Source: a virus
Reading direction: 5' to 3' (one strand)
IMG/VR virus record: IMGVR_UViG_3300011113_000271
Span: 1 to 35,645 of that record
DNA: 35,645 nt
Position numbers and translations under genes: made by a program. Below, one piece after another: positions 128 to 35,645 of the stretch. The notes under the pieces are model-generated. The model ran no database searches. It saw nothing but the letters and a program-made list of their open reading frames with translations, and was not told the DNA's origin. The number at the start of each line of letters is the position of its first letter. Positions within the stretch are counted from its first letter, which is position 1.

Positions 128-287
128 ATCTGAGTACTCAGATCAAGAGATACCGCTTCGGGTACGATTTAACGCCGACAGCGTTGAGTTAACGCCGAAT
201 CTCGACGGGTTGGAATGGATACTCAACAAAGATCGTACATCGTTTCTCGATGAAATTAGGGACCTCGTATTTAATTGGAGTGAGTAG
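66..287 (+). CDS. Small hypothetical protein (73 aa)
   Basis: I do not recognise the family. The protein is 73 residues, soluble in appearance, with no membrane segment or cysteine cluster. The ATG at 66 follows a strong GGGGGA Shine-Dalgarno sequence nine bases upstream of the gene, just after the stop of the GP88-like gene (9-nt gap), so the two are probably co-transcribed. It ends with TAG at 285. Context places it among the small early genes that run from 33990 through the circle junction. Function unknown. Confidence 0.7.
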   Translation: MVTLKAVSNTPIHRILICTIRSEYSDQEIPLRVRFNADSVELTPNLDGLEWILNKDRTSFLDEIRDLVFNWSE

Positions 288-299
288 CTTAGAGGGTAT

Positions 300-331
300 C
301 CGTGAGCGGGTACCCCATAGGTTTCTCACGG
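300..331. other. Intergenic hairpin
   Basis: CCGTGAG (300-306) and CTCACGG (325-331) form a perfect 7-bp stem with an 18-nt loop, in the 81-nt gap between two small early genes. No U-tract follows directly, so it is not a good intrinsic terminator. It may be an mRNA processing or stability element; this is inference. Confidence 0.45.
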
Positions 332-650: not shown

Positions 651-690
651 GGGGGTAGGGTAAAAAAACACCTTACCCCCTTGCTTCTGT
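651..690. terminator. Hairpin terminator after the first early sub-operon
   Basis: GGGGGTAGGGT (651-661) pairs with ACCTTACCCCC (670-680): 11 bp with one G-T wobble and an A-rich loop. A run of A lies upstream (640-646) and a partly T-rich TTGCTTCTGT downstream, so it may terminate in both directions, better on the minus strand. It separates 369-641 from the next promoter. Confidence 0.6.
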
Positions 691-708
691 AAACAGACAT
701 GATATAGT
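681..708 (+). promoter_or_regulatory. Early promoter P1 with palindromic operator
   Basis: TTGCTT (681-686) is a possible -35. A TG (700-701), one base and TATAGT (703-708) form an extended -10, 16 nt after the -35. The palindrome TCTGTAAACAGA lies at 686-697, between the boxes. The same arrangement, with identical spacing from palindrome to -10, occurs at 33929-33951. This suggests a sigma70-type promoter controlled by a dimeric repressor; the HTH protein at 33610-33906 is the obvious candidate regulator (inference). Confidence 0.6.
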
Positions 709-721
709 CGGCGTGTCGATT

Positions 722-746
722 GGGAATGGTTCCCGCAACGATTGGA
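722..746 (+). promoter_or_regulatory. Leader hairpin plus ATTGGAG ribosome site
   Basis: GGGAA (722-726) and TTCCC (730-734) form a small hairpin in the mRNA leader. ATTGGAG follows at 741-747 and gives the GGAG Shine-Dalgarno for the ATG at 756 (8-nt spacing). The same hairpin-then-ATTGGAG order recurs before several other genes of this phage. Confidence 0.5.
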
Positions 747-755
747 GAAACGAAA

Positions 756-839
756 ATGACTGCAGCGATTATAACAGTGACCTACGGACTCACGGCTTTT
801 TGGATAGGGTATAACTGGGAGAGATTACGGAAGGAGTAG
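756..839 (+). CDS. 27-residue single-span membrane protein; frame open past amber stop
   Basis: Starts at ATG 756 behind GGAG (744-747). The product, 27 residues, is one hydrophobic segment (residues 2-19) followed by a charged tail ending in WERLRKE, so it is probably an inner-membrane peptide. It stops at TAG 837-839. The same frame then stays open for 51 more codons to a TAG at 993, coding a Pro/Glu/Asp/Arg-rich tail (starting GPPPTQREDG). Readthrough, or a Trp-to-amber change in a former 79-residue protein, would join the two parts. TAG is used as an ordinary stop elsewhere in this genome, so general recoding is unlikely. Family unknown. Confidence 0.5.
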   Translation: MTAAIITVTYGLTAFWIGYNWERLRKE

Positions 840-962
840 GGACCCCCACCCACCCAAAGGGAGGACGGCACACCTGAGCCGGAGCCGGACGGGGACCGCA
901 AGCCGACCGCCGCCGAGGCGCGCAGGCTGCAGCCAGCGTCGCAACCCGCGAAATTTTTCTTG
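840..962. other. GC-rich block after the small membrane gene
   Basis: Bases 840-950 are strikingly GC-rich compared with neighbouring sequence and include C-runs (CCCCCACCCACCC at 843-855). No independent start codon with a ribosome site is visible. In frame with the gene at 756 it reads as an uninterrupted hydrophilic tail after the amber codon. It may be the decayed or readthrough 3' part of that gene, or a recently acquired segment. Confidence 0.5.
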
Positions 963-1020
963 GGTGAAAATAAAATTCGGAATTTTGAGTTCTAGGTGAA
1001 ATAAAAATTCGGAAATTTTG
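963..1020. repeat. AT-rich imperfect direct repeats with inverted cores
   Basis: Two copies of a ~25-bp element lie at 963-987 and 995-1020, both starting GGTGAAA and ending ATTTTG. Each contains an inverted repeat around CGG; the first has perfect 7-bp arms (AAAATTC/GAATTTT, 973-987). A partial third copy (AAATTTTTC) lies at 951-959. They abut the ATTGGAG leader of the gene at 1039. They could be operators for that DNA-binding-type protein or origin iterons; neither is proven. Confidence 0.6.
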
Positions 1021-1038
1021 GATTGGAGAAATATGACT

Positions 1039-1467
1039 ATGTTTTGGAAACTGTTTAGTAAAACCGAGCAAAAACCAGCTACAAAGCTGGAAGAGATGAT
1101 AACAGCTACACCAGCTCTTGCAAAGCTGCCTGTACGCAAGAAAGAGCCAGGCAAGGAATGCAGGTACTGCCACACTGTCAAGCCAGCAGCGGAGTTTAAT
1201 AAGTCACAAAAGGCAGGCGACGGGTTGCAACCTTACTGCAGATCATGTCAGTCAAAGTGCAGTAAGAAGTACCAAAAGAAGGCAAAGAAACTTGAGCAAA
1301 AAGCTATTGAGGCAGGTCAGAAACCACCGACGATGACGATATGCGTTAAAGGTGTTCCAAAGGATATGCACGAACGTCTTATGCGGCTTGCAGAGCGTAG
1401 AAAGTCTACGTTCCGTGCCATGTACCTCGACATGGTGAAGACCTACCTCATTCTTAACGACAAATAA
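1039..1467 (+). CDS. Zinc-finger plus ribbon-helix-helix-like protein
   Basis: The N-terminal half has a Cys cluster (CRYC at 41-44, CRSC at 67-70, a further Cys at 74) of the zinc-binding type seen next to HNH and endonuclease VII folds. No His-Asn-His catalytic set follows, so a binding role is more likely than a nuclease role. A Lys-rich helix links it to a C-terminal stretch (98-140, ICVKGVPKDMHERLMRLAE) resembling an Arc/CopG ribbon-helix-helix. I favour ATG 1039, 10 nt after GGAG; ATG 1033 would leave only 4 nt. The gene precedes bet by 10 nt and follows AT-rich repeats it might bind. DNA binding is inferred from motifs. Confidence 0.75.
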   Translation: MFWKLFSKTEQKPATKLEEMITATPALAKLPVRKKEPGKECRYCHTVKPAAEFNKSQKAGDGLQPYCRSCQSKCSKKYQKKAKKLEQKAIEAGQKPPTMTICVKGVPKDMHERLMRLAERRKSTFRAMYLDMVKTYLILNDK

Positions 1468-1477
1468 GGAGACCTTT

Positions 1478-2155
1478 ATGACTACAGAGTTAACAACAGT
1501 GAACTATCAAGACCCACACGTTATCAAGGTGCTGAAACACACAGTCGCTCGCGGAGCTACAGACGCAGAGTTTGCGCTGTTCCTTGAGTACTGCAAGAGC
1601 ACAAAACTAAATCCGTTTAAGAAGGAAATCTGGTTTATAAAGGCTGGAGACCGCGTACAGCTTATGACGGGTATCAATGGCTACTGGACAATCGCCAACG
1701 CTCATCCTGAGTTTGACGGTGCCGAGAGTGGCATGATTAACAAGGATGGTGAGTGGGTAAAGTCTGTAGGCGATACGAGCTTCATTGGTGCTTGGTGTCG
1801 CATCTACCGCAAGGACAGAAAGTATCCAATGGAAGGCGAGGCAATGATGGCCGACTACGACACTGGCAACGGTCTGTGGAAGTACAAGCCACGGATCATG
1901 ATAAAAAAGGTCGCAGAGTCCATCGCGTTGCGTAAAGCATTCTCTCAAGAACTAAATGGCCTGTATACAGAGGAAGAGATGCCTGCTAAGTATGCTGCGC
2001 CGCCAGGAGAGTTCGTAGAGATAAAACCTCCTGTCATGCAGGTGACAAAAGAAATACTCAACAAAGAGACTGGCGAGCTGGTAGACGTAGTGTTTACTGA
2101 CGATGACCTCCCTTGGGAGGCTGAGAAAAAGTCAGCAAGTGGAAAGAGAAAATGA
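1478..2155 (+). CDS. bet: Single-strand annealing recombinase, Bet/RecT superfamily
   Basis: The 225-residue protein matches the Bet/Red-beta group of phage annealing proteins. Diagnostic stretches are ATDAEFALFLEYCKSTKLNPF (about 27-47), which is the family's D-E-L-x-x-F pattern, then LMTGINGYWTIA (62-73) and the RIMIKKVAESIALRKAF helix (about 136-152). The family coats single-stranded DNA and anneals complementary strands during replication and recombination, usually with an exonuclease partner. No lambda-Exo homologue is obvious; the VRR-NUC protein at 5426 and the candidate nuclease at 3626 are possible partners. The ATG lies behind AAGGAG. Its stop overlaps the next start (ATGA), so the next gene is translationally coupled. 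Confidence 0.9.
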   Translation: MTTELTTVNYQDPHVIKVLKHTVARGATDAEFALFLEYCKSTKLNPFKKEIWFIKAGDRVQLMTGINGYWTIANAHPEFDGAESGMINKDGEWVKSVGDTSFIGAWCRIYRKDRKYPMEGEAMMADYDTGNGLWKYKPRIMIKKVAESIALRKAFSQELNGLYTEEEMPAKYAAPPGEFVEIKPPVMQVTKEILNKETGELVDVVFTDDDLPWEAEKKSASGKRK

Positions 2156-2331
2156 ACCGAGATTACAAGCCTGGTTACGACAAGCCGAGAGACGGGTACG
2201 TTCGTTACACGATTTACCTGGACAGCGAACTATTGCAGAAGTTCAAAGAGATGGCCGCTCAAGAAGGTAAGTCAATGCTGGAAGCAGCAAACGAGGCTAT
2301 CGGTAATTGGGTTTATGTCGAGGAAGAGTAG
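2152..2331 (+). CDS. 59-aa ribbon-helix-helix protein coupled to bet
   Basis: A short gene that overlaps the bet stop by four bases (ATGA at 2152-2155). The 59 residues contain a strand (YVRYTIYLD, about 16-24) then two helices (SELLQKFKEMAAQEGK and SMLEAANEAIGNWV), the layout of Arc/MetJ/CopG ribbon-helix-helix dimers that bind DNA through the strand. It most likely represses or modulates this operon. The gene ends six bases before the tRNA. The fold is inferred from sequence pattern only. Confidence 0.75.
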   Translation: MNRDYKPGYDKPRDGYVRYTIYLDSELLQKFKEMAAQEGKSMLEAANEAIGNWVYVEEE

Positions 2332-2337
2332 CAGTAC

Positions 2338-2413
2338 TGGAGCGTAGTTCAGTTGGCAGAACAGGTGGCTGTTAACTACCATGTCGGAGGTTCGAGTCCT
2401 CCCGCTCCAGCCA
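2338..2413 (+). tRNA. tRNA-Asn(GTT), CCA encoded
   Basis: A complete cloverleaf: acceptor TGGAGCG/CGCTCCA, D arm, anticodon stem GGTGG/CTACC (one G-T pair) with anticodon GTT at 2371-2373, variable loop, and T arm GGAGG-TTCGAGT-CCTCC. Discriminator G is followed by genomic CCA at 2411-2413. The sequence resembles bacterial tRNA-Asn. Only this tRNA is visible in the window. Phage tRNAs usually supplement host decoding for biased codons; it is also a possible relic attachment site, but no integrase is present. Confidence 0.95.
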
Positions 2414-2459
2414 TAAAAAAACCGAGGGTAAGTAGAATCAAGGAACTACCTACCCTCGG
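2414..2459 (-). terminator. Strong hairpin with U-tract on the minus strand
   Basis: CCGAGGGTA (2422-2430) pairs with TACCCTCGG (2451-2459), extended by a GTAG/CTAC inner stem. The poly-T needed for intrinsic termination (TTTTTTT) is found when read on the minus strand (2415-2421). On the plus strand the hairpin is followed by CGATTGGAG instead. It could stop antisense transcription, and on the plus strand trim the tRNA transcript or protect the 5' end of the next message. Confidence 0.6.
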
Positions 2460-2478
2460 CGATTGGAGACAATCGACA

Positions 2479-2511
2479 GTGACTAGCTACCGAAAATCAA
2501 TAAATGAGTAA
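2479..2511 (+). CDS. Possible 10-codon leader peptide
   Basis: GTG at 2479 lies ten bases after GGAG of the recurring ATTGGAG element. It opens ten codons (MTSYRKSINE) and stops at TAA 2509-2511, overlapping the ATG of the next gene at 2504. Such an arrangement would allow coupled translation of the following gene, which has no ribosome site of its own. Evidence is limited to the signal and spacing. Confidence 0.35.
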   Translation: MTSYRKSINE

Positions 2512-2710
2512 CATATACCCACAAACAGAGCAACTTATGTCAATGCACAATAGAGGGTACTCAAACAATCGATACACATCTTCCTACCGGAAGACGAAGG
2601 ATCTAACTAACTCACTAATAGTTGATCCTACTAACTCACTAATGGGGTATTGGGGGAAGGTATTCTTTTTAACAGACAGAGCTAAGGCTGTTATCGAGAT
2701 TAGTGAATGA
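2504..2710 (+). CDS. Small hypothetical protein with internal 8-residue repeat (68 aa)
   Basis: A 68-residue frame with no recognised family. Polar, Asn/Ser/Tyr-rich N-terminus, then a tandem duplication of eight codons (DLTNSLIV / DPTNSLMG) encoded by 2600-2647, then a short hydrophobic C-terminal part. The ATG has no clear Shine-Dalgarno but overlaps the stop of a 10-codon frame that does, suggesting coupling. A G-run region follows. Whether this is a functional protein is uncertain. Confidence 0.45.
   Translation: MSNIYPQTEQLMSMHNRGYSNNRYTSSYRKTKDLTNSLIVDPTNSLMGYWGKVFFLTDRAKAVIEISE
2600..2647 (+). repeat. 24-bp in-frame tandem duplication
   Basis: Two adjacent 24-bp units (2600-2623 and 2624-2647), both beginning GATC and sharing ACTAACTCACTAAT. 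Being a multiple of three, the duplication keeps the reading frame of the surrounding small gene. Confidence 0.75.
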
Positions 2711-2713
2711 GTA

Positions 2714-2741
2714 GGGGGGTGGGGGGTATTAGGGGGGAGGG
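2714..2741 (+). other. G-quadruplex-type motif
   Basis: Four G-runs of 6, 6, 6 and 3 bases separated by loops of T, TATTA and A lie directly after the stop of the gene ending at 2710 and about 60 bases before the next start. This satisfies the canonical G3+N1-7 pattern on the coding strand, so both DNA and mRNA could fold. A role in terminating, pausing or replication is possible but not shown. Confidence 0.7.
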
Positions 2742-2797
2742 ACACCCACCTTGTCAAGACCCTAATAGTAAAAAAAGTTTAATTGGAGACAAAAAAT

Positions 2798-3310
2798 ATG
2801 ATGGATGTTGAACAAATCAAACAACTGATGCTGATTCTAAGAGCCGAGTACGGCAACAAGGTGGTCTGCACCGAGGATAGAGCAAGCGTGTGGCAGGTGG
2901 TATTGGCTCACGCCTCGTATAACGAAGCACAGCTCGCTATAGCGAAACTTCTCTCTGAGGCGAGGCCTTTCCCTCCCTCGATAGGAGAAATCAACCAGGA
3001 GGTCATTAGAGGCCGTAAAACGGAAACAGCAGACTGGTCCCAGTTATGGGACGCCGTGGCCGAGGCAGGGTCTCGCTCGCTCTACTACGCAGAAGAGGAG
3101 GCGGCAAAACTTCCACCGTCAGCCTTAAAGGCTATAGGCGGCATACCAGGTCTAAAGGAGGTCGCAAACAGCACCCCAGACCATATCGCGGTTATCCGCG
3201 CACAATTTCGTCAGAGGCTGGAAGCAGCAACCGAGAACCAGGATACCCAGGTAACTCGAAAGAACCTGTTAAGGTCCCTGCCGAAAATCAACGTAAAACA
3301 AATAGGATGA
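2798..3310 (+). CDS. Probable helicase loader / replisome organiser (G39P-like)
   Basis: A 170-residue protein. The N-terminal ~70 residues are helical and end with ARPFPPSIGEINQEV (55-69), the pattern of G39P-type helicase loader domains, in which a fPPs-x-gEI motif closes a small helical bundle. The rest is Ala/Glu-rich and ends in a basic segment (RKNLLRSLPKINVKQ) that could bind DNA or partner. Such proteins bring the replicative helicase to phage origins. No helicase is recognised here, so it may recruit the host enzyme. The start is ATG 2798, nine bases after GGAG; the TTG at 2783 is part of the ribosome site. It overlaps the next gene by ATGA. Confidence 0.6.
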   Translation: MMDVEQIKQLMLILRAEYGNKVVCTEDRASVWQVVLAHASYNEAQLAIAKLLSEARPFPPSIGEINQEVIRGRKTETADWSQLWDAVAEAGSRSLYYAEEEAAKLPPSALKAIGGIPGLKEVANSTPDHIAVIRAQFRQRLEAATENQDTQVTRKNLLRSLPKINVKQIG

Positions 3311-3561
3311 ATATGGCGTTCGCAAAAAAGACAAGAGAAGAGTGGGATGCAGAGGCTAAGGCAAAGAACCTGCAGAAGGCCGTCGACAACATCGACATGG
3401 TGAAGCAAATCGCTAAGGCCGCAGCGTTAGGCGCAGACAGCAAGACCGACGCGCTGCTGATGATTCTCCTCTCAGAGATCATGAACCTTAACAACAACCT
3501 CTATTGGATCAATCACGCACTAAAAAAAGCTAAAACCTCTAGCGATAACGTGCCGTTCTAA
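3307..3561 (+). CDS. Small helical protein with SSB-like C-terminal tip (84 aa)
   Basis: Starts at ATG 3307, overlapping the preceding stop by four bases; a second ATG at 3313 is possible. The protein is mainly helical: a charged N-terminal helix, an Ala-rich middle and a leucine-rich helix (ALLMILLSEIMNLNNNLYW). It ends SSDNVPF, similar to the acidic DDDIPF tip by which bacterial SSB recruits partners. There is no OB-fold, so it is not SSB itself; it may mimic or follow the tip, or the resemblance may be chance. Family not recognised. Part of the recombination/replication operon. Confidence 0.7.
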   Translation: MNMAFAKKTREEWDAEAKAKNLQKAVDNIDMVKQIAKAAALGADSKTDALLMILLSEIMNLNNNLYWINHALKKAKTSSDNVPF

Positions 3562-3572
3562 TGTATACAGAT

Positions 3573-3611
3573 GGTCGCAGGTGCTTACTCCATGAGTGCC
3601 TGCGACCTTTG
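3573..3611 (+). terminator. Hairpin before the gene at 3626
   Basis: GGTCGCAGG (3573-3581) pairs with CCTGCGACC (3599-3607), nine perfect bp, followed by TTTGTT and then TTGGAG. It fits a weak intrinsic terminator or attenuator, or the recurring leader hairpin placed in front of a TTGGAG ribosome site. Confidence 0.55.
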
Positions 3612-3625
3612 TTGGAGACAAATAC

Positions 3626-3985
3626 ATGACTAGACAACGAAACGACTCACACTCAACCGAGTTTGGATTGTGGCTACGCAATCAAAAAAGCCTCGACCAG
3701 AAGCACGGCTACCTCGCTACAAACCTGGATTATATTTGGGGAAACTACAACAAACTTAAGTGGATGATGATTGAAGAGAAACGCTGGAGAGCGCCTCTTC
3801 GTCAGGCACAACGTGACCTAATCGAAGTCCTCGACCAATGCTGCAAGAAAGACCCCATGTACGAAGGCTTTCATGTGCTGCAATTCGAACGAACGTCACC
3901 GGATGACGGACGAGTATGGTGGGACGATAAAGAAATAAGCAAAGAAGAACTACTTCAGCTATTATCGTTTAGGATCACACTATGA
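3626..3985 (+). CDS. Conserved phage protein, possible PD-(D/E)XK-like fold (119 aa)
   Basis: Begins at ATG 3626, eight bases after the GGAG of TTGGAG. The N-terminal part reads HSTEFGLWLRN, then ATNLDYIWGNYNKLKWMMIEEKRW (about residues 32-55). The spacing of Asp in LDYIW and of Glu-Glu-Lys in IEEKR resembles motifs II and III of restriction-endonuclease-like folds, so a nuclease role is conceivable. I know similar proteins only as unannotated phage genes. The gene overlaps the next by ATGA. Catalytic activity is inference from a short motif. Confidence 0.65.
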   Translation: MTRQRNDSHSTEFGLWLRNQKSLDQKHGYLATNLDYIWGNYNKLKWMMIEEKRWRAPLRQAQRDLIEVLDQCCKKDPMYEGFHVLQFERTSPDDGRVWWDDKEISKEELLQLLSFRITL

Positions 3986-5809: not shown

Positions 5810-6303
5810 TGTCAGACAACCATAGGCCATGGAAAACCAGTAAAAGCGGAGAAGATTCCCCGTCCAACGAAACACCAGAACGAAACTTGTGGTTCGCTGT
5901 AATCGAGCGAGCACTTAAAGACTACTGCTTCTTCTTCAATAAACTCTCAACCACAGGCCAGGGACAGCTTATAAACTGTGAGAGTAGGTCTCCAACCTTC
6001 AACAATGACTTTAACCTAAAGGCTATCGGCGAGTTTAACAGGCTACGCTGGTTCCTCTTTGAAAAAGAACCGCACCCATTCAACCTCACATACCTAACAG
6101 AACAACTATACGATGACGGAGAAGGCGCAGCCTCCTGCATACGCAAGCAGGCCGTCATGCAGTTCAAGCTACACTTCCTTACAACCGAAGAACTCGGACG
6201 CTTTGTAGCAATAACATCCTACATCAGAGACAGAATACGAATATGCGCCTCCGACGCAGCAGAGAAAGAAAGCGCGCTACGCTACAAAAAGTTTAGACTG
6301 TAG
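5806..6303 (+). CDS. Conserved hypothetical protein, last early gene (165 aa)
   Basis: Begins at ATG 5806 (ATGATG; 5809 is an alternative) overlapping the nuclease stop. Central part RNLWFAVIERALKDYCFFF, then AIGEFNRLRWFLFE and a segment ending DGEGAASCIRKQA, resembles a group of phage proteins of about 150 residues that I know only as unannotated. Basic C-terminus. It ends with TAG at 6301-6303, immediately against the stop of the convergent holin gene. Confidence 0.65.
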   Translation: MMSDNHRPWKTSKSGEDSPSNETPERNLWFAVIERALKDYCFFFNKLSTTGQGQLINCESRSPTFNNDFNLKAIGEFNRLRWFLFEKEPHPFNLTYLTEQLYDDGEGAASCIRKQAVMQFKLHFLTTEELGRFVAITSYIRDRIRICASDAAEKESALRYKKFRL

Positions 6304-6489: not shown

Positions 6490-7307
6490 GCTATGCTTCC
6501 TGCTTCTTTAGTTTTAAACACAGACGAACTGCAACGACGCTCGGATGGAGGCGTGAATGAGGGGGACATGTTGCGCGAAGTATCTTTAACGCCGTTGCAA
6601 TTCATCCATGACGACCAATAAAACCGCAAGTCGCACTGTCTAGTGTTTCGATAGAACCTTCTGATGTCAACAGGTTTTGAAAGTTCCTCTCCGTCAAGGT
6701 CGGCAATGCAGGGAGAGGACAATCCTGGGTCGGAACCGTGTCGCTCACACACCGTGCCTTTAACGCAACCTCCCTTAAGTGGGTTGTCCACAAGAACACA
6801 AGCAGGCACAGCAACAGATACAATATCAAGCATAGCTTTCCGAGCTGGTCCATAAAGGTCACACTCCAGACAAGGCGATACATAACAGGTAAGCGGTCCC
6901 TTGGAGGCCGCAATACGTCTCTTAAACCGCTCTACAACGCGCTGAAACTTTCGCCTGACGTCAGACCTAGGCTTGAGCATTTTACGGCTCGCAGAGGCTG
7001 CAGACTGCTTATAAAGCACATCAGACGGCTCGCACCTGTTGTTCCTCATGCAGGGAGAGTTTATGAGGTGGATGCGAAGAATCTTTTCCTTGTTGCTACG
7101 AAGGATTCGCTTGCCACACTCGCACTTCTCACCAAACGACTCCTCAAGCCAGCCAGTAATAATAGGCTTGCCGTCCCAAGTACGCATCACATTGTCGCAA
7201 TCCCAAGTACGATTGCACAAACCTATATAACTAACTCCCTGCGCGATAACCGTGCGCCACGGTGCTAAAACAGATACACAAAGTATCGTTGTAAGCAGTA
7301 ACCTCAT
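6465..7307 (-). CDS. Secreted cysteine-rich protein in the lysis cassette (280 aa)
   Basis: The first 23 residues are a Sec signal peptide (MRLLLTTILCVSVLAPWRTVIA, cut before QG). The mature part has 16 cysteines, many in pairs (CNRTWDC, KCECGK, CMRNNRC, TCYVSPCLEC, GGCVKGTVC), so it probably folds with disulfides outside the cytoplasm. Hydrophobic strands each end in polar motifs (ILRIHLINSPC, CYVSPCLECDL, CVLVDNP, CDLRFYWSSWMNC), a rhythm reminiscent of TIM-barrel glycosidases, with Glu148 a candidate acid; this is a guess. Position between the coiled-coil membrane protein and the holin suggests a role in wall or envelope breakdown. ATG 7307 overlaps the upstream stop (ATGA) behind TTGGAGAA. 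Confidence 0.75.
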   Translation of the reverse strand: MRLLLTTILCVSVLAPWRTVIAQGVSYIGLCNRTWDCDNVMRTWDGKPIITGWLEESFGEKCECGKRILRSNKEKILRIHLINSPCMRNNRCEPSDVLYKQSAASASRKMLKPRSDVRRKFQRVVERFKRRIAASKGPLTCYVSPCLECDLYGPARKAMLDIVSVAVPACVLVDNPLKGGCVKGTVCERHGSDPGLSSPCIADLDGEELSKPVDIRRFYRNTRQCDLRFYWSSWMNCNGVKDTSRNMSPSFTPPSERRCSSSVFKTKEAGSIAWNLLSHR

Positions 7308-32237: not shown

Positions 32238-32265
32238 CCTCCAATCAAAAAAGACCGTTGTCGGT
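32238..32265 (-). promoter_or_regulatory. Hairpin, T-run and ATTGGAGG leader
   Basis: On the minus strand ACCG-ACAA-CGGT (32265-32254) is followed by a T-run and then GATTGGAGG (32246-32238), five bases before ATG 32232. It is the same hairpin-plus-ATTGGAG layout seen on the plus strand. The 4-bp stem is weak. Confidence 0.4.
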
Positions 32266-33609: not shown

Positions 33610-33906
33610 CTATGCACAGGATTCAATGAGCCGACCCATATCTTCCCATGTCATCCCAGACAACTCACGCAAGGCGCACAATTCACCAAGTCTATACACT
33701 TCCTTCTCTCGCTCTCTGTAATACCACGCCTCTTGAGATATCCCCACCAGAGCCGCTATATCGCACGCTGTTAAATCCATTTTCTGGCGTACCTTGAGGT
33801 ATAGGTTGCGTCTATTTCGTTTAATCTCGTGAGGTCTACGCACTGCCAGGAGCCATTTATTACCAATCTTTTCGTGTGTCATGTAAACAAGACTATCCCA
33901 TACCAT
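33610..33906 (-). CDS. XRE-like HTH transcriptional regulator (98 aa)
   Basis: Residues ~36-90 (VRQKMDLTACDIAALVGISQEAWY, split: VRQKMDLTACDIAALVGIS and QEAWYYRERE; then LGELCALRELSGMTWEDM) follow the Cro/C1-type helix-turn-helix pattern, in which the second helix lies at GISQEAWYYRE. A basic segment precedes it (RRPHEIKRNRRN). It diverges from the early promoter at 33929-33951 and is therefore the likely repressor of the TCTGTWWACAGA operators. ATG 33906 and ATG 33882 are both possible; neither has a good ribosome site. An AT-rich TATTTTATAA just upstream could be its -10. Confidence 0.72.
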   Translation of the reverse strand: MVWDSLVYMTHEKIGNKWLLAVRRPHEIKRNRRNLYLKVRQKMDLTACDIAALVGISQEAWYYREREKEVYRLGELCALRELSGMTWEDMGRLIESCA

Positions 33907-33928: not shown

Positions 33929-33951
33929 TCTGTTTACAGAATTGTGATAGT
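33929..33951 (+). promoter_or_regulatory. Early promoter P2 with palindromic operator
   Basis: TCTGTTTACAGA (33929-33940) is followed after two bases by TG-T-GATAGT (33943-33951), an extended -10. Palindrome, spacing and -10 match P1 at 686-708. It drives the early block beginning at 33990 and overlaps the probable promoter of the divergent HTH gene, forming a small regulatory switch. Confidence 0.62.
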
Positions 33952-33959
33952 ATCCCTGC

Positions 33960-33980
33960 AGGCAATCATGCCTATTGGAG
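33960..33980 (+). promoter_or_regulatory. P2 leader hairpin plus ATTGGAG ribosome site
   Basis: AGGC (33960-33963) pairs with GCCT (33970-33973), directly followed by ATTGGAG (33974-33980), whose GGAG is nine bases before ATG 33990. It repeats the leader layout found at 722-747. Confidence 0.45.
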
Positions 33981-33989
33981 ATTAAGACT

Positions 33990-34232
33990 ATGATTACACA
34001 CCGACCAATTTACGAGATAGCGAGAGAGATTAGGAAATACTGGGAATCACCATACTTTGGAGCTGTTCCATACCTTAGAGCAATGCACGATCTAGACACC
34101 GTATCTGATTCATACGGCCTCGATTCAGCTCGTGAAATCCTTACCTATTTCCTATGCAATGCAGGGAGCTTTAGAGGTGAGCACGCACGCGCAATCAAGG
34201 CAGAGATCAAGTCTATCTTAGGGAGGAAGTAA
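33990..34232 (+). CDS. Conserved small phage/plasmid protein (80 aa)
   Basis: Start at ATG 33990, nine bases after GGAG; the in-frame TTG at 33975 is part of the ribosome site. The pattern THRPIYEIAREIRKYW, PYFGAVPYLRAM, YGLDSAREILTYFLCNAGSF and RGEHARAIKAEIKSIL is a small helical family I recognise from phages and plasmids, with no assigned function. It is the first gene after promoter P2, so it is expressed early. The next gene starts one base after its stop. Confidence 0.75.
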   Translation: MITHRPIYEIAREIRKYWESPYFGAVPYLRAMHDLDTVSDSYGLDSAREILTYFLCNAGSFRGEHARAIKAEIKSILGRK

Positions 34233-34233
34233 C

Positions 34234-34815
34234 ATGAAACCAATCAAACTCAAATGGTACTCAGATCCAAGCCACGCATGGTTACGAATCAGTCGGAAGG
34301 ATGCGGACTACCTCGGCATACTCCCTCAGATTACCTCTTATAGTTACCAGTCTAAGCACGGGAATATTTTATACCTTGAGGAAGATCAAGATGCCGCGCT
34401 AGTGCTCAATGCTCTTATGCAACGTGGTGGAGAGGTGAGGCCATGCTGGGGTATTGGCGTGGTTGAGAGAACTCGCCGATCTAACATTAGATACCTTCCT
34501 AGATACTTTCACGAACTATATTGTACTGTTTACAGTAAGGATCATAATCTGTATGAAAAGATCGATAGGGTTGATCAATTCATAAGAGAGCACGTTTCGG
34601 ACATGTACCATGTACCAAGACCAATTGCTCAGTACCCATGGGGGATAGATGATTTTTATACCGTACTCGATCAAGCTCGCGAATTCATACGCGAGCGAGG
34701 GTTTTACGCCTATAGCACCGACAAGCACGATCTTGTCGTCACTAACTCGCGACATCGCATGATCGTTGATAACGCGAGAACTGCTGAAATACTGAAATTG
34801 ATCTACGTTAAATAG
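34234..34815 (+). CDS. Two-domain protein with N-terminal SDPxHAWL domain (193 aa)
   Basis: Residues 1-62 (YSDPSHAWLRISRKDADYLGI, ITSYSYQSKHGNILYLEEDQDA) match a widespread small phage/plasmid domain of unknown function that often stands alone at about 60-100 residues. Here it is followed by another ~125 residues, rich in Arg, Tyr and His (RYLPRYFHELYCTVYSKDHN), which I do not recognise. GAGGAAG is the ribosome site. An operator-like palindrome lies inside the gene (34525-34538). Function unknown. Confidence 0.72.
   Translation: MKPIKLKWYSDPSHAWLRISRKDADYLGILPQITSYSYQSKHGNILYLEEDQDAALVLNALMQRGGEVRPCWGIGVVERTRRSNIRYLPRYFHELYCTVYSKDHNLYEKIDRVDQFIREHVSDMYHVPRPIAQYPWGIDDFYTVLDQAREFIRERGFYAYSTDKHDLVVTNSRHRMIVDNARTAEILKLIYVK
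34525..34538. promoter_or_regulatory. Third operator-like palindrome, inside a gene
   Basis: TACTGTTTACAGTA has six-base arms with a TT centre and shares the CTGTWWACAG core with the P1 and P2 operators. No extended -10 follows at the usual distance. It might be an auxiliary repressor site or roadblock. Confidence 0.4.
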
Positions 34816-34824
34816 GGGGACCCA

Positions 34825-35574
34825 ATGCCGAATTATAATTTGCTATCAGACAACCAACTAAAAATGGCTAAGAGCATCGATCTGGGATTCTACAGTGTAA
34901 TACTACATCTTGAGCCAGCGTATACATATAAAAGCCTAAAAACGTGTCCCTGGTCAGGTCAATGCGCTGGATACTGTCTCGGTAACTCAGGACAGATGCG
35001 ATTCGATACCGCACGGAAGGCAAGGATCCGGCGGACTCAGTTATTGGTGGACCATCCTAGCGAGTTTTACGCCGCGCTAGTGCTCGATATATGCAAGGCG
35101 CAACGGTACGCCAACTCCCTTGGGTTGTCGCTCACCGTGAGGCTTAACGGTACAAGCGATTTACGGTGGGAGAACATGGCAGTATCACCAGATGGTAAAA
35201 ACATATTTGAAGTATTTCCGTGGGTTCAATTCATTGACTACACGAAATCAGTTGAGCGAGCACTAACAGTTAACGTTGAGAACTATGATCTAACGTACTC
35301 ACGCAACGAAAAGAGCACGGAAGGGGAGATCGTTGAGATATTAGACAACGGCGGGAAGGTTGCCGTGGTGTTTGATATCTCCAAGGGGGACCCATTACCT
35401 AAAACGTATAAGGTAAATAAGAGGCGTTTTAAGGTAATCGACGGCGATATCTCAGACTTGAGGCACCTTGACCCTCACGGCGTAATCGTGGGGTTACGGT
35501 ATAAGCGCGCTTTCAGTAAAAAAACAGGGAAGTCGCTCAAGATAAAAGCCGGTTTCGTCATTTTAGGTCAATAG
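34825..35574 (+). CDS. GP88-family protein (249 aa)
   Basis: Starts at ATG 34825 after GGGGGA. N-terminal half: LKTCPWSGQCAGYCLGNSG with Cys41, Cys47 and Cys51, ARKARIRRTQLL, VRLNGTSDLRWEN (105-117) and FIDYTKSVERAL (137-148). This combination is the GP88/Gp68-like family of phages, whose Cys triad has suggested an iron-sulfur or radical-SAM-type protein, though no activity is established. The C-terminal ~100 residues (EGEIVEILDNGGKVAVVF) seem an extra beta domain. The last 56 bases are repeated at the start of the window. Confidence 0.82.
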   Translation: MPNYNLLSDNQLKMAKSIDLGFYSVILHLEPAYTYKSLKTCPWSGQCAGYCLGNSGQMRFDTARKARIRRTQLLVDHPSEFYAALVLDICKAQRYANSLGLSLTVRLNGTSDLRWENMAVSPDGKNIFEVFPWVQFIDYTKSVERALTVNVENYDLTYSRNEKSTEGEIVEILDNGGKVAVVFDISKGDPLPKTYKVNKRRFKVIDGDISDLRHLDPHGVIVGLRYKRAFSKKTGKSLKIKAGFVILGQ

Positions 35575-35645
35575 GGGGAAATCATGGTTACACTTAAAGC
35601 AGTATCAAACACACCGATACACCGAATTTTAATTTGTACAATACG
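35519..35645. repeat. Terminal direct repeat, copy 2
   Basis: Identical to bases 1-127; see the first copy. One copy should be removed when the genome is treated as a circle. Confidence 0.93.
35584..35645 (+). CDS. 5' end of the 73-aa gene (redundant copy)
   Basis: The first 62 bases of the gene at 66-287 repeat here and are cut by the window end. Not a separate gene. Confidence 0.9.
   Translation, partial: MVTLKAVSNTPIHRILICTI

Follow-up and report, generated by a model that had tools for sequence, protein, structure and literature searches.

Hairpins before phage start codons suggest an uncatalogued leader RNA that folds onto the preceding stop codon

Intercistronic RNase III sites of the T7 type are hairpins that separate early genes and are immediately followed by a ribosome site, and the Escherichia coli infC-rpmI pseudoknot is an intercistronic structure that couples the translation of neighbouring genes and can be melted by the upstream ribosome. 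The nearest known kind to the element considered here is the start-associated sequences (SAS) and extended start-associated sequences (ESAS) of actinobacteriophages, with which it shares a repeated, clade-specific motif that is wider than a Shine-Dalgarno (SD) sequence, lies directly before a subset of non-structural genes, has an inverted repeat just upstream in about half of cases, and varies in consensus among subgroups. A parallel to SAS/ESAS exists in cluster EF phages (PMC7302621). The inverted repeats of ESAS have been judged not to support RNA pairing (PMC3203893), and the function of SAS/ESAS still awaits a test (PMC12699233); start-associated phage repeats have been without a known function since 2011. 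Here we analyse the IMG/VR virus record IMGVR_UViG_3300011113_000271 over all of its 35,645 bases (the window), in which hairpins stand before a TTGGAGA motif and the start codon of early genes.

An original prediction, made from the letters of the window, had proposed a recurring cassette of RNA hairpin, TTGGAG and start codon. The cassette is real and looks phage-specific, and it belongs to something larger than is visible from the window; it is also several things, namely promoter-adjacent hairpins with AAU loops, long intercistronic hairpins and one probable minus-strand terminator. Our results suggest that two of the window hairpins belong to a widespread, uncatalogued leader RNA that in other phages folds onto the preceding stop codon, perhaps a device controlling early-gene translation. 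These are GGG-AATGGTT-CCC at 722-734, before the 27-aa open reading frame (ORF) 756-839, and AGGC-AATCAT-GCCT at 33960-33973, before gene 33990-34232, both on the plus strand. The first was found in an unbiased scan and is conserved in two relatives (L003 and L020); the second is conserved in L020 and has changed stems in L004 and L005. Each has a GC-rich stem and a loop of 6-7 nucleotides (nt) that starts with AAU, and each ends 1-7 nt before the motif, which lies on the plus strand at 742-748 and 33975-33981, respectively. Because neither is significant in energy-only tests against shuffles, the case for these two hairpins rests on loop conservation.

The 42 start sites initially compared had partly been collected after the hairpins were seen, and we therefore relied on unbiased scans. 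In a gene-blind scan of eight phage genomes or records, WTGGRR occurs within 9 nt after 12 of the 37 hairpins whose loops start with AAT, compared with 0-3 for each of eleven other loop starts. The pattern GGCAATNNNGCC-N1-6-TTGGAGA-N3-9-ATG, a GGC-AATNNN-GCC hairpin followed by TTGGAGA and ATG, is matched by at least 80 IMG/VR contigs when intact, by 4 with the loop scrambled and by 8 with the stem broken; 41 of the 80 matches are left after removal of similar leaders and of ORFs shorter than 20 codons. Relatives of gene 33990 are encoded by L071, L095, L105, L111 and L140 (L105 and L140 also encode relatives of gene 34825), and in the first four an AAU hairpin precedes the gene and further structured leaders are found elsewhere. 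A near-identical leader (AAGTATTGCAAGTATGCGCTGACCCGCATATAGTGGCGGTGGGCAATGTTGCC..TTGGAGAAAACA) stands before different genes in L079, L106, L110, L114, L115, L132 and L145, as if it were a mobile cassette.

No earlier description of this leader RNA was found in open-access text. The 4227 covariance models of Rfam matched only the tRNA in the window, and among loci with the element, 15 gave no match at the gathering threshold and 5 gave none at E<=1. Named phages yielded no convincing DNA match to the leaders, and DSL-LC05 and ctNMl277, two of the nearest named phages, have no AAU hairpin. Bacterial genomes were rejected as carriers, since among the matches listed those inspected look like chance and lack the additional stem described below. 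DSL-LC05 (L272) does carry CCCGTAACCGTAAAGGAACC directly before three early genes, at 33990-34017, 34158-34184 and 34707-34734, another SAS-like start repeat; one of these genes is a relative of gene 33990 of the window.

In many IMG/VR contigs the AAU hairpin, here termed P2, is the 3' part of a full form in which a stem, P1, directly precedes it. The P1 score threshold is reached by 38 of 94 elements (40%), compared with 2.3% of shuffles. Upstream of P1, a strand of at least 4 nt, X, is complementary to bases 3-6 of the P2 loop. In an alignment of ten sequences this pseudoknot helix is 100% paired and three of its four pairs have changed on both sides, as have 11 of the 13 pairs of P1; the covariation of neither helix was equalled in 500 shuffles, and no slid version comes near it. 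The invariance of P2 in this alignment reflects the search pattern, in which it was fixed. When each similarity group was represented by a single element, a complement of the element's own loop is found 8-10 nt before P1 for 12 of 19 loops, compared with 4.6% with foreign loops (0 of 20,000 permutations). These comparisons show that, in the full form, the P2 loop and the strand X at the upstream stop codon complement each other and covary. That stop codon lies 8-14 nt before P1 and overlaps or adjoins X in 21 of 26 P1-bearing elements; the element therefore sits between two cistrons, with its loop tied to the place where ribosomes terminate. In the same contigs a covariance model of the element, R1, picked up additional copies whose SD flanks differ: L092, L093, L072 and L136 yielded three each, and the record of L125 also yielded three, of which one is weak. 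The P1 loop at 3722-3796 of L093 and at 2078-2152 of L092 contains TTGGAGACAG, a copy of the start motif within the structure.

Compensatory changes in relatives, the lack of which the original prediction would have taken as refuting its cassette, are found in the pseudoknot and P1, and they are found again in a long intercistronic hairpin of the window. This hairpin, at 3573-3607 on the plus strand (15 bp, 5-nt loop, z -5.0), precedes the motif at 3612-3618 (plus strand) and gene 3626-3985. Its counterparts in L044, L066, L049 and L006 have different stems of the same kind, and the one in L066 precedes another gene. A count of 12 pairs across five sequences finds every cell paired and 10 pairs altered on both sides, with a score that none of 500 shuffles reaches. 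Each sequence entered the alignment by its own stem, which makes the pairing itself a matter of construction, but every one of these stems folds far better than shuffles (z -4.4 or lower). As MAFFT misaligned the stem arms, the pair count was made with constant anchors. G-U pairs in stems of this type number 14 on the plus strand versus 1 (six clear cases), which indicates that the mRNA strand is the selected one. The claim that structure alone is kept holds for the 3573 stem, but the loop is not free, since two hairpins share its AAU start. On this comparative evidence, the AAU hairpin and the P1-type hairpin at 3573 are under selection as structures.

The window would then have two reduced members of the leader class; it also has, at 280-357, a strongly folded leader with the layout of the full form, which the original prediction had missed. 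The latter begins with a long stem at 280-329 (plus strand, z -4.1, P0/P1-type), whose 5' strand contains the stop codon TAG (285-287) of gene 66-287. A small plus-strand hairpin, GTTT-8 nt-AAAC, recognised by the layout, occupies the P2 position at 342-357 and is followed by AAGGGGA (358-364) and gene 369-641; its loop does not start with AAU, so that the layout of the full element is present and the AAU loop is absent. The gene 369 leaders of L004, L005, L006 and L007 likewise have the upstream stop-codon region in or beside a long stem, then a small hairpin, then the motif, and the small hairpin has an AAU loop in L004, L005 and L006.

We tentatively read the hairpins as leader RNAs for early genes, whose intercistronic copies would couple initiation to termination on the preceding gene, a reading in which our confidence falls a little short of an even balance. 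For the broader proposal, a widespread and undescribed class of leader RNA whose AAU loops form pseudoknots with the upstream stop-codon region, so that terminating ribosomes may switch the next early gene, the balance is even. The unit would comprise a hairpin ending 1-7 nt before a weak, fixed SD motif (TTGGAGA in the window) and then a start codon. A ribosome terminating on the upstream gene would cover X and the 5' arm of P1 and melt the pseudoknot or outer stem, the downstream leader would refold, and the state of P2 beside the SD would alter initiation, such that initiation on the next early gene could be coupled to translation of the previous one. In the promoter-proximal leaders (722-734 and 33960-33973), P2 would be all that is left, near the mRNA 5' end, where it probably either serves as a 5' structure or is read by the same factor that recognises the loop elsewhere.

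Several observations weigh against this proposal. The SD is no more often unpaired, by predicted probability, than with shuffled upstream sequence, a comparison that rules out raised SD accessibility as the effect of the hairpins; with the SD already free in the predicted states and no accessibility gained from the hairpins, the link that would lead from structure to initiation is lacking. The hairpins at 722-734 and 33960-33973 have neither an X strand nor a P1 stem, and a search of the window with model R1 gave nothing at E<=1. Some of the IMG/VR matches are near copies of one another, and a few lie inside genes and are probably due to chance.

A fixed loop on variable stems beside the ribosome site of many early genes would also be expected of a translational operator, through which a phage RNA-binding protein that recognises both the AAU loop and the motif would repress, or else activate, a number of early genes. 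The precedent is T4 gp43 at the mRNA of its own gene 43, with a loop-specific hairpin upstream of the start and sequence that overlaps the ribosome site (PMC3014915). We consider such an operator rather unlikely, as bases 3-6 of the loop are variable in the full form and pair with X, leaving only AA, and partly U, to a protein, and no candidate binding protein has been identified.

The surroundings of the hairpins bear on a somewhat less likely explanation, in which they make the 5' ends of mRNAs more stable, whether these arise at transcription starts or by intergenic cleavage. In the window, each AAU hairpin occurs by itself, and promoter-like sequence containing a CTGTNNACAG palindrome lies immediately upstream. 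Upstream of 722-734 lies CTGTAAACAG at 687-696 (plus strand), a putative operator that is present in L003 and L020, followed by the extended -10-like TGATATAGT (700-708, plus strand), a promoter by inference; upstream of 33960-33973, the putative operator CTGTTTACAG at 33930-33939 (plus strand), conserved in L020, L021 and L004, lies just before the -10-like GATAGTAT. The palindromes of the CTGTTTACAG type are likely to be sites of the small repressor-like protein encoded at 33610-33906 (a weak PHROG match). A third intact CTGTTTACAG occurs at 34526-34535, inside gene 34234-34815, and CTGTATACAG occurs at 1961, inside the RecT-like gene. End protection fits these positions near the expected 5' end, as it does the intercistronic placement of the long hairpins, but it leaves the fixed loop, the stop-codon pseudoknot and the fixed motif unexplained. 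Coupling could operate together with a loop-binding protein or, at the promoter-proximal copies, with protection of the 5' end.

Attenuation or termination on the plus strand, another function that had been suggested, was rejected, as no U-tract follows the stems on that strand. The minus strand presents a different case at 2422-2459, where a long hairpin (z -4.7) after tRNA-Asn may be an intrinsic terminator of that strand beside an ordinary ribosome site, as may a stem near 650-680. The 2422-2459 hairpin is present in relatives, and its 5'-side A-tract (an antisense U-tract) is invariant in six sequences with no T-tract on the 3' side, so that, read on the minus strand, a stable stem is followed by a U-tract; its G-U pairs show no strand preference. 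These two properties make a minus-strand terminator a serious rival at this hairpin, and the late genes run toward the region with no gap at 6303/6304. As an account of the hairpins in general, minus-strand termination is improbable, because it fails for 3573-3607, which has no A-tract and bears plus-strand G-U pairs, and for the AAU hairpins. Less probable still is a signal at the DNA level, repressor-bound inverted repeats at promoters as suggested for the ESAS of cluster K. Although two window hairpins have CTGTNNACAG palindromes and -10-like sites immediately before them and ESAS hold putative promoters (PMC11373665), the stems differ among sites and so form no common DNA site, the G-U pairs at 3573 favour one strand, and the pairing covaries, unlike that of ESAS (PMC3203893).

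The motif itself is overrepresented, with 17 copies of TTGGAGA in the window compared with 4.95 +/- 2.3 in shuffles, none of 100 of which reaches 17. Six plus-strand copies lie shortly upstream of start codons, all in the early region, and the single start motif on the minus strand (32244) precedes a gene of no known family; as in SAS/ESAS, the motif stands only before the starts of non-structural genes. Late genes mostly have ribosome sites of the AGGAG type. The start motif takes the form [AC]TTGGAGA or ACATGGAGA, and at the same places in relatives its version is near-uniform inside each genome and differs from genome to genome: ATTGGAGA in the window and L002, mostly ATTGGAGA in L007, (A)CTTGGAGA in L006 and L005, and ACATGGAGA in L066 and at several sites of L004. 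The usual 16S tail pairs with GGAG only, so that the fixed TT and A must serve another purpose. The same argument from fixed bases beyond the SD has been made for the SAS of cluster K mycobacteriophages (PMC3203893). At intergenic starts of six phages, stems adjoining TTGGAG are stronger than those at other GGRG sites (Mann-Whitney p = 0.004, with orthologues that are not independent). No convincing antisense RNA complementary to the motif was found; early-strand copies of TCTCCAA fall within genes.

Of the places where a hairpin had been claimed before TTGGAG, four stand (722-734, 2422-2459, 3573-3607 and 33960-33973) and two do not. Near 1004-1019, upstream of the motif at 1023-1029 (plus strand) and gene 1033-1467, for which ATG 1033 and ATG 1039 are both possible starts, there is no convincing hairpin: the adjacent-hairpin test fails (p 0.57), and the site is an A/T-rich palindrome within a twofold repeat that is degraded in L002, although the whole 60 nt fold somewhat better than shuffles (z -2.5). 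The minus-strand hairpin at 32254-32265 is not conserved, and L020 and L021 keep CATTGGAGG without it. A counterexample that had been overlooked is the plus-strand motif at 2783-2789, which has no hairpin in the window or in relatives. About 30 nt before it, a G-rich tract (ggggggtggggggtattaggggggaggg) and then TTGTCAA occupy 2711-2760; the tract is conserved in L002, L005, L006, L046 and L066. The remaining plus-strand copy, at 2463-2469, precedes a GTG ORF of 10 codons (2479-2511) that overlaps the start of ORF 2504-2710 and is a possible leader peptide.

A GC-rich non-coding stretch at 841-955 is followed by two copies of GGTGAAA(A)TAAAA(A)TTCGG (960-980 and 995-1012), and a block like 841-1019 lies at the same place in L003, L004, L005, L006 and L007, possibly an origin or a non-coding RNA. 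A probable origin in L005 is an intergenic cluster of DnaA-box-like TGTGGATAA repeats at 6809-6865.

A 127-base direct terminal repeat at 1-127 and 35519-35645 makes it probable that the record represents a whole genome, circularly closed and some 35,518 bases (about 35.5 kb) long. The plus strand carries the early genes, which start at 33990 and continue over the join as far as 6303; the late genes are on the minus strand, from 33906 down to 6304. DNA comparison of bases 1-25000 found no match among named phages, and the portal and RecT-like proteins have only distant named relatives; uncultured relatives were gathered with the RecT-like protein, gene 33990, gene 3626 and the gene at 2801. 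Gene 2801-3310 gave no match in bacterial genomes.

If the proposed coupling is true, phages have in common a compact RNA device, absent from the RNA family database, that sets the order in which early genes are translated, and phage gene calling would benefit at start sites and very small ORFs. The RNA structure, loop sequence and pseudoknot of this related arrangement are testable with simple reporters. Like the infC-rpmI pseudoknot, the full form lies between two cistrons and could be melted by the upstream ribosome, but the predicted states leave its SD unsequestered, and in many phages the element turns up repeatedly before genes that are unrelated. With T7-type RNase III sites it shares hairpins between early genes and a ribosome site directly downstream, known here from sequence alone; the stems here are of 9-15 bp and come with a small second hairpin and a pseudoknot. 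The T4 gene 43 operator likewise combines a loop-specific hairpin upstream of a phage start with a ribosome site that is part of the operator (PMC3014915), but it serves one gene and is bound by the DNA polymerase gp43, whereas here many genes in many phages are involved and the loop pairs with upstream RNA. From SAS/ESAS, finally, the element differs in its motif, which is unrelated in sequence (the 13-bp cluster K consensus GGGATAGGAGCCC is absent), and in its stems: the 17-bp inverted repeats of ESAS share a consensus, whereas the stems here differ among sites, covary, and come with a loop of fixed sequence, to which the full form adds a pseudoknot.

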